Positions 56,268 to 64,000 of a stretch of 64,000 nucleotides of DNA are shown here, piece by piece. Each line of letters opens with the position of its first letter. Position 1 is the first letter of the stretch. The position numbers and the translations under genes are program-made. Source of the DNA: Leptolyngbyaceae cyanobacterium C42_A2020_001 (lineage in GTDB: Bacteria; Cyanobacteriota; Cyanobacteriia; Leptolyngbyales; Leptolyngbyaceae); the NCBI GenBank assembly GCA_015272515.1, contig JACYLN010000061.1, positions 84,439 through 148,438 of the forward strand, in the 5' to 3' direction. Below the pieces are notes generated by a model. It saw only the letters and a program-made list of their open reading frames with translations, was not told where the DNA came from and ran no database searches.

Positions 56268-57671
56268 TTAGCAATTGTTTTCACTACAGGATTGAGGGTT
56301 AGCAACCTCTGTACCGATCGCATCCTGGATGGATTTCAACCCGGTTTGATCCAGCTTTTGCAGCAAGCCTTCAAGTACCTGGCGTACCATCATCGGTCCC
56401 TGATAAATCCAACCCGTGTAGGCTTGTACCAGGCTAGCTCCTGCTGTAATTTTCTCCCAGGCATCCTCAGCGGTGAAAACGCCCCCCACTCCGATAATGG
56501 GTAGTTGTCCCTGGGTTTCTTTATAGATGAAGCGAATCACCTCCGTTGATCGCGCCCGTACAGGTGCGCCACTAATTCCCCCCGCTTCCTCCATTGCCAA
56601 CTTGCCCGTTCTCTCAATCACTGAAGTTTTTAAGCCATCTCGCCGAATTGTGGTGTTCGTCGCAATGATTCCCGCCAGTTGATAGGTTTGAGCCAGCGCA
56701 ATCACATCTGCGATCGCATCCCACTCCAGATCCGGCGCAATTTTCACCAGAAGCGGTTTGCGGTCTGTATTTTCCTGCTGCAATGCCTGCAAAATGGGTT
56801 CTAGTTGGGCTTTATCTTGCAGCGATCGCAAGCCCGGTGTATTCGGCGAACTCACATTCACCACAAAGTAATTGCCCCACTCTTTCAGCAAACGAAAGCT
56901 GTTGACGTAATCCTCCTCCGCCGATTCCAATGGTGTGACTTTGGATTTGCCGAGATTAATGCCGAGGGGATAGGGGATAAGTGGGTGGGTGGATGGGTAA
57001 GTGGGTGGGTGGGTAGATGAGTACATGGGTGATTGGGGAGTTGGAGAATTTTGTTCTCCCCGTCGGCTGACAGCTCGACTGAGCGCTCGCCGAATGTCGC
57101 TCTGGGAAGCCTGAGTCAAACCGAAGGGAATTTCTTCCCGACCTCCCTTACCTTCTCCTGCCTCCCGTCGGACGTTCGGCGAAGCCTCAGTCGAGCCGCT
57201 GACGCTCTGGGAAGCCTGCCTCCTGCTTCCCCACCTCCTCTCTAAGGTCTCTGCCATGCTCGCTGCTCCTCGGTTGTTGAAGCCCATACGGTTGAGAACG
57301 GCGTGATCTAATGGCAGGCGAAACAGGCGGGGGGATGGATTTCCAGGTTGAGCGTGGTAAGTAATAGTGCCCAATTCAGCGAAGCCAAAGCCAAAGGTTG
57401 CCCAAATGCCGGAGGCAACGCCGTCTTTATCGAATCCGGCAGCCAGTCCAATCGGGTTGGCAAAGGGAATGCCCCAAAGGGTTTGGTGCAGGCGTGAGTC
57501 AGTGAGGGTGCAAGCGTGGTGTAGGCGCGATCGCATCCAGTGAGCCACCCAATCCGGCTGGGGACTGTCTAGCCAGCTAAGTATGCTCAAGCTTTGGGAA
57601 TGGAGCCATTCTGGGTCGGTTTTGAGGGCAGAGAATAGAATTGGGCGAAGTAGCGATTGATAGAGGTCCAT
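56268..57671 (-). CDS. pyrD: Dihydroorotate dehydrogenase (quinone) with a repeat insert of about 87 residues
   Basis: PyrD oxidises dihydroorotate to orotate in pyrimidine synthesis, passing electrons to quinone at the membrane. I start at ATG 57671 (MDLYQSLLRP); nine residues upstream are a weaker start. Class 2 motifs: IGLAAGFDKDG, ELGTITYHAQPGNPSPRLFRLP, NRMGFNNRGA, LGINLGKSKVTPLE, NVSSPNTPGLR, IAPDL and GVGGVFTAEDAWEKI. The 467 residues exceed the usual length of about 370-380 because residues about 149-235 are an insert of repeat sequence between NNRGAASMAETLERRWG and LGINLGKSK. The insert sits in a surface loop, so activity is plausibly kept. The gene is monocistronic. Confidence 0.94.
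   Translation of the reverse strand: MDLYQSLLRPILFSALKTDPEWLHSQSLSILSWLDSPQPDWVAHWMRSRLHHACTLTDSRLHQTLWGIPFANPIGLAAGFDKDGVASGIWATFGFGFAELGTITYHAQPGNPSPRLFRLPLDHAVLNRMGFNNRGAASMAETLERRWGSRRQASQSVSGSTEASPNVRREAGEGKGGREEIPFGLTQASQSDIRRALSRAVSRRGEQNSPTPQSPMYSSTHPPTYPSTHPLIPYPLGINLGKSKVTPLESAEEDYVNSFRLLKEWGNYFVVNVSSPNTPGLRSLQDKAQLEPILQALQQENTDRKPLLVKIAPDLEWDAIADVIALAQTYQLAGIIATNTTIRRDGLKTSVIERTGKLAMEEAGGISGAPVRARSTEVIRFIYKETQGQLPIIGVGGVFTAEDAWEKITAGASLVQAYTGWIYQGPMMVRQVLEGLLQKLDQTGLKSIQDAIGTEVANPQSCSENNC
56967..57227 (-). repeat. In-frame modular repeat cassette inside pyrD
   Basis: About 261 bases (87 codons) not expected in PyrD. On the plus strand the order is GGGGATAGGGG-type run, GTGGGTGGGTGG runs, GAATTTTGTTCTCCC (57046-57060), a 51-base unit (57061-57111), TGAGTCAAACCGAAGGGAATTT (57112-57133), and a second 51-base unit (57166-57216). 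On the protein side the core reads EIPFGLTQ...GEQNSPTPQS. The flanking core matches the 37-base core of the NTPase inserts except for one base. Confidence 0.85.

Positions 57672-64000: not shown

Follow-up and report, generated by a model that had tools for sequence, protein, structure and literature searches.

In-frame repeat cassettes built of heptads and nested 24- and 27-base units in at least 25 mostly unrelated genes of a Leptolyngbyaceae cyanobacterium

The window analyzed here is a stretch of 64,000 nucleotides (G000:C89:84439-148438) from the draft genome of Leptolyngbyaceae cyanobacterium C42_A2020_001 (genome G000; 5.55 Mb in 149 contigs). It contains 108 GCGATCGC sites, and 22 of the 24 pyrD relatives retrieved are cyanobacterial. 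On its minus strand lies pyrD, the gene for a class 2 dihydroorotate dehydrogenase (56271..57698; PF01180, 1.8e-89). An in-frame insert at 56973..57236 (minus strand) encodes PyrD residues 155-242, 88 amino acids in place of 4 residues in the solved dihydroorotate dehydrogenase structure 8ofw; a preliminary description of this DNA had rightly placed such inserts in loops of otherwise normal enzymes. The 3' part of an nSTAND1-type NTPase gene follows on the same strand (61111..63999; PF20703, 2e-29). Its 5' part very likely lies at the end of contig C148 (G000:C148:69689), since both pieces match one 1188-aa open reading frame, the orthologue in genome G002. The first cassette of this gene (62486..62795, minus strand) consists of a purine-rich arm, unit B, heptads, unit A, heptads, octads and CCCCTAY heptads; both units are intact and 24 nt long, B at 62715..62738 and A at 62677..62700, the latter flanked by AAAATTC dimers (62663-62676 and 62701-62714). 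The second cassette (63810..64000, minus strand) has unit B at 63957-63980 and breaks off at the contig end within unit A (63988-64000). Two purine-to-pyrimidine cassettes without units A or B lie on the plus strand in the gene for cobalamin-dependent methionine synthase (1289 aa), both in frame, at 34428..34572 and 36214..36313.

The sequence identities reported in the preliminary description are all present: a 37-base core at 62708-62744 and 63950-63986, the two parts of this core in pyrD at 57046-57060 and 57112-57133 with one mismatch, and a 20-base module at 62670-62689 and 63981-64000. The full inserts are larger than these shared modules and include purine-rich and pyrimidine-rich arms, and the window stops, at a contig end, within the second NTPase cassette. 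The usual cassette order is a purine-rich arm containing 7-base units (e.g. GGAGGCA), ATTC, AAAATTC heptads, and a pyrimidine-rich arm of octads or heptads. Units A (GGTTCGGCTGACTCACCGGAAGCC) and B (CCTTCGGTTCGACTCAGGGAGAAC), each of 24 bases, have a common joint between ATTC and AAAATTC, and further 24- or 27-base units are nested inside both. With a joint pattern that permitted any extra length up to 80 nt, the interior of B holds 0, 24 or 51 (24+27) additional nucleotides in 21 copies, always after CTCAGG. The interior of A holds 0 or 24 nt in 20 copies, always after GGTTCGG, under a pattern that permitted only 0, 24, 27 or 48 nt; of 21 3' ends of A it recovers all except a decayed one in rnfD. 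Unit D is joined directly after CAGG and is found in purine-rich arms too, without B around it; two loci on contig C119 (L250 and L251, G000:C119:4619 and 5597) have D in their purine-rich arms in this way. In pyrD there are three nesting levels in the heptad joint, with unit B (24 nt; 57053..57127, minus strand) containing D and D containing a 27-nt unit, and the core is split there by exactly 51 nt, the 24-nt unit D with the 27-nt unit in it. A unit D (24 nt) interrupted by the 27-nt unit E also occurs in the purine-rich arm of pyrD (57164..57214, minus strand). The modular character proposed earlier is borne out, but the units nest and the 37-base core is not the element proper; the core consists of a 24-nt unit and its heptad flanks within a larger repeat cassette.

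The core also occurs outside the window. Allowing up to 3 mismatches, there are 12 copies genome-wide, of which 10 are exact, and the reversed-pattern control has none, in keeping with the dispersed element that had been suggested. Unit A, whose sequence is non-repetitive, has 15 copies (control 0), and its 13 exact copies stand at 13 places in 12 loci; since 13 of the 15 are identical, the spread of the units is likely to have been recent. The unit B marker has 23 matches, 21 of them with at most one mismatch (control 3), and AAAATTC heptad dimers number 29 (control 0). The octad was uninformative as a marker (44 matches versus 43 for the reversed-pattern control), and octads were dropped as evidence. 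Manual merging of the three whole-genome marker searches (unit A, unit B marker and heptad dimers) gave 37 loci, the nSTAND cassette at two contig ends being counted as one. This number excludes two unit B marker matches with 2 mismatches (L144, L162), cassettes in recG, a glyoxalase gene and one histidine kinase gene, the decayed intergenic copy L129, and extra unit-D sites (two on C119, one at the end of C142 and one at C108:10908). The recG, glyoxalase, kinase and L129 cassettes came from a wider cassette search with at least 52 matches (40 of 174 candidates scored). The anatomy was read on the sense strand of 61 stretches around matches. Two contig ends (window position 64000 and G000:C148:69689) very probably divide a single nSTAND cassette, the cassette at the end of C70 is cut as well, and the draft may under-count cassettes.

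Twenty-seven of the 37 loci are genic, in 26 genes, and 10 are intergenic. The host genes encode a subtilase, three histidine kinases, an LpxB-like protein, PutA, a SIS protein, an ABC ATPase, MutM, a GH116 protein, a CobB-type amidotransferase, a LysA-type decarboxylase, PyrB, an RnfD-like protein, a spermidine synthase, an acetyltransferase, an S15 peptidase, a sigma-like protein, a LeuA-like protein, DnaX, RecJ, PyrD, the nSTAND1 NTPase (two cassettes), two TPR proteins and one unknown protein; they are mostly unrelated. The recJ gene (L178) also has a second, different low-complexity insert near protein residue about 588, GIQESGGRRREAALSTQHSALTP... The preliminary description was right that inserts lie inside genes, but with 10 of 37 loci intergenic they are not restricted to them. 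The coding fraction of bacterial genomes is typically high enough that 27 of 37 does not exceed it, so the cassettes show no preference for genes as such. All 27 genic copies are in the sense orientation, and alignment with G002 orthologues places both flanks in one frame at 25 of them, the second nSTAND cassette and the one labelled c145 being cut by contig ends; the frame-keeping noted earlier thus holds well beyond the window.

A single reading also prevails within the units. The ADSPEA-type frame is the one used by 20 of 21 unit A copies, though a second A frame is open, and the FGSTQ-type frame by 14 of the 17 copies of unit B (14:2:1), though both other B frames are open. The chance of such a bias is 5e-5 for B, taking its three frames as equal, and 1e-5 for A with two frames, both values assuming an independence of copies that is possibly untrue. 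A repeat of 7 bases cycles through the three phases and so gives the same 7-residue repeat in every frame (AAAATTC yields KIQNSKF). In the intergenic cassettes (the 10 loci and L129) the sense frame is open in 10 of 11 and the antisense frame in 2 of 11; in the genic cassettes the antisense frame is open over the tested stretch in 8 of 31. Strand-asymmetric openness is a property of the cassette DNA itself, and not an absolute one. Being open mostly on one strand, the heptad array is frame-neutral in the sense direction and usually interrupted by stops in the antisense direction.

The PyrD insert is predicted to be a disordered loop. An AlphaFold2 model built from 21 sequences gives residues 161-240 a predicted pLDDT of about 29-50; the mean over the model is 70, with much of the barrel above 80 and other weak stretches too. 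A Foldseek search returned dihydroorotate dehydrogenase structures and adds only confirmation of the fold. Named cyanobacterial PyrD proteins have short linkers at this site, the longest in L204, and in G002, G001, G004 and G007 the loop measures 9, 21, 7 and 47 aa against 83, 87, 91 and 65 aa for our PyrD in the respective comparisons. From these results we propose that the composite cassettes, which leave at least 25 mostly unrelated genes in frame and whose heptads mostly carry nested units, probably persist through translation as predicted disordered surface loops. Heptad arrays would first arise or expand in loops that tolerate a change of length; units of 24 or 27 bases, both multiples of three, would then insert at the fixed joints without a change of frame; and purifying selection would remove antisense, frame-shifted and basic readings, leaving the one that is acidic and then Pro/Ser-rich. 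The units may be copied by insertion, through DNA or RNA, or by conversion between similar arrays; site-specific insertion is our preferred guess.

For mutM a comparison within the genus is available. In G002 (L184/L363) the gene has the same arms with ATTC and four AAAATTC heptads, and in our genome (L140) the same four heptads have unit A at two joints. The pair reads as a direct before and after for two exact 24-base insertions, with no visible target duplication in the compared sequences. That cassettes should be an artefact of assembly or contamination is scarcely credible: this is a draft genome and some cassettes stand at contig ends, but the flanks are orthologous to genes of same-genus genomes, the reading frames are unbroken, and a cassette stands at the same mutM site in G002, a genome in one contig. 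Plain low-complexity slippage, that is, expansion of repeats in loops with no mobile units at all, would account for the heptads and octads that make up much of the arms, for the putA cassette, which has heptads and no unit, and for the methionine synthase cassettes; it cannot yield a non-repetitive 24-base unit identical at 13 places, and we regard it as very unlikely to be the whole account.

A different history for the units is ectopic recombination, in which they would not insert themselves and similar arms and heptads would let cassettes in different genes swap their central parts, whether by gene conversion or by template switching. Intact unit A is found at 19 of the 27 genic loci and at none of the 10 intergenic ones (hypergeometric 1.3e-4, post hoc), a bias compatible with either selection or exchange between genic arrays. 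Two intergenic cassettes have decayed copies of unit A (L129:9455 and L165:2520). Most A copies are placed after the same two heptads, so the preference for the acidic frame perhaps came from the copying of whole arm-plus-array blocks, and this constant heptad number, like the single common reading frame, speaks for exchange. The order of units, on the other hand, varies (A-B, B-A, A-A, B alone), units are nested at internal joints, and D occurs in purine-rich arms at its same CAGG joint without B. On balance we think exchange of this kind rather doubtful, if possible, as the source of the pattern, and continue to prefer insertion.

The arms could also pair in RNA. The nSTAND cassette, its two arms pairing with each other, folds better than dinucleotide-shuffled versions (z -3.2, 0 of 100 shuffles), as might be expected if inserts were cut from the mRNA in an intron-like manner, or skipped by the ribosome, so that the protein is normal. 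Over 28 cassettes, however, arm pairing beyond composition is weak (mean z -0.8), and the 25 genic copies of which both flanks are seen are open and in frame, which removal would not demand and which leaves no need for it; we hold removal to be highly improbable. An RNA hairpin was considered as the functional core and rejected, the signal being clear in one cassette and otherwise mostly base composition across the 28. Folding of seven unit sequences, and of A together with its flanks, was no better than that of shuffles, and the copies are near-identical, so that they offer no covariation. A transposase partner was likewise rejected: none of six genomic matches to PF01797 (Y1-transposase) is convincingly linked to the units, with no unit at 5 or fewer mismatches nearby and one weak D-like stretch with 6 mismatches near L391, in agreement with the earlier remark that the family seems not to be a transposon. 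Four of these matches (L388-L391) have identical scores and one internal TGA each. Exact unit A was not found in viral contigs, and the search for a plasmid carrier gave no plasmid match.

Relatives do not carry the same inserts, so that neither they nor the distribution of the core, the two points on which the preliminary description could be refuted here, speak against it; but they are not simply empty. A search of 387 other genomes of the class for unit A (up to 2 mismatches) found it in 4, none with more than 3 copies, and at this threshold it is absent from both same-genus genomes, one of which is 84% complete. In 28 proteins compared with G002, the G002 loop is shorter than that of our genome in all 27 usable comparisons, c145 being left out because our gene runs off the contig; it has 12 residues or fewer in 10 of the 27, among them mutM with the shared cassette minus its A units, and IQN-type remnants stand at the G002 S15 peptidase and sigma-like genes. 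Genome G007, from another genus of the family, is rich in in-frame repeats (loci L340-L350, L365, L374, L381, L385, L387), and its own cassettes (IQNSKFKIQNS, KLKTQNS, PTPHTPHP) stand in at least 8 of the same loops (LpxB-like, putA, SIS, GH116, recG, acetyltransferase, TPR and pyrD). It holds 210 AAAATTC dimers in 8.6 Mb. Among the first heptad arrays listed from G007 and G011, 10 of 10 lie in sense open reading frames of 188-1004 aa; the corresponding numbers for heptad-dimer loci in a long sense frame are 1 of 4 in G002 and 0 of 1 in G001, and G002 has one armless heptad dimer antisense within a 272-aa frame.

That a second genus fills the same loops with a different repeat vocabulary, and that the predicted reading is uniform, acidic and then Pro/Ser-rich, might suggest adaptive linkers, peptides kept because they are useful, e.g. 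as flexible spacers or hydration sites. The host genes have no evident common function, though, and the loops are short in most of the same genes of G004. A 56-residue region search with the insert of the ABC protein, limited by protein length and exact words, returned two proteins only, the query itself and a SIS-domain protein. We judge selection for usefulness to be improbable. More tentatively than the persistence of the cassettes by translation, and with less than even confidence, we extend our reading to mobile units fit for coding DNA. Such units, of 24 or 27 bases, stop-free in the preferred frame and joined at one point in frame-neutral heptads, may build and refill predicted disordered linkers across the genome in the same core-enzyme loops, and may have done so separately in several genera of a single cyanobacterial family.

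Among known repeats, the cassettes most resemble the Rickettsia palindromic elements (RPE) in effect and the small dispersed repeats (SDR) of Nostoc in build. RPE have one conserved coding frame, and the cassettes likewise have one main frame (A 20/21, B 14/17). The SDR described by Elhai in 2008 are reportedly 21-27 nt long, lie within heptameric tandem repeats, nest and are apparently mobile, and a hairpin is said to be common to some of their families. The units described here are similar in build, with lengths of 24 or 27 nt at fixed joints, a heptad setting and nesting, but most of their host arrays are intragenic and one frame predominates in their reading. The heptanucleotide repeats of cyanobacteria are known as STRR. 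Cyanobacterial GGGGAYT heptad repeats have been described, and intragenic heptads are reported as a minority in Nostoc; these repeats are, like ours, 7 nt long, strand-asymmetric and scattered over the genome (PMC4692102). RPE (Ogata 2000, 2002) are 105-146 bp long with terminal inverted repeats and long stem-loops, and are dispersed in frame in unrelated conserved enzyme genes, and intergenically too, with a conserved peptide (PMC2229807, PMC10969869). The cassettes share the dispersal, in frame, in unrelated conserved enzyme genes, with some copies intergenic, and the conserved peptide, but they are cyanobacterial and consist of heptads and nested 24/27-nt units, and a palindrome of the 105-146 bp RPE type was not encountered (mean z -0.8, 28 cassettes). 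RPE, named as precedent in the preliminary description, thus remain apt for the in-frame position, the unrelated genes and the one frame, but not for the long palindrome or the modules. REPIN palindromes, which also flank the RAYT gene associated with them, are likewise tiny, non-autonomous dispersed repeats, but REPs are extragenic by name, and here no PF01797 locus is flanked by units save for the D-like stretch at L391 (PMC3116915). PARCEL is coding repeat DNA in genes, shuffled within genomes; it differs in being tandem 25-residue amphipathic domains in open reading frames without assigned function, not enzyme loops (PMC2996958).

A title and abstract search, with most subscription papers outside its range, found no published in-frame heptad or SDR cassettes in cyanobacterial enzymes and thus supports novelty weakly. 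To our knowledge, selfish inserts that keep the frame of core enzymes have been described mainly in Rickettsia and Wolbachia. Given the exact 24- and 27-base units, their fixed joints and the mutM pair, the way in which some of the smallest known repeats are copied can be tested directly. The frame-neutral 7-base repeat rule explains how such DNA can enter genes without disrupting them and provides disordered loops with a natural origin. With at least 25 such genes in one cyanobacterium, and many more heptad arrays in its relatives, the phenomenon of in-frame inserts would become a general one.
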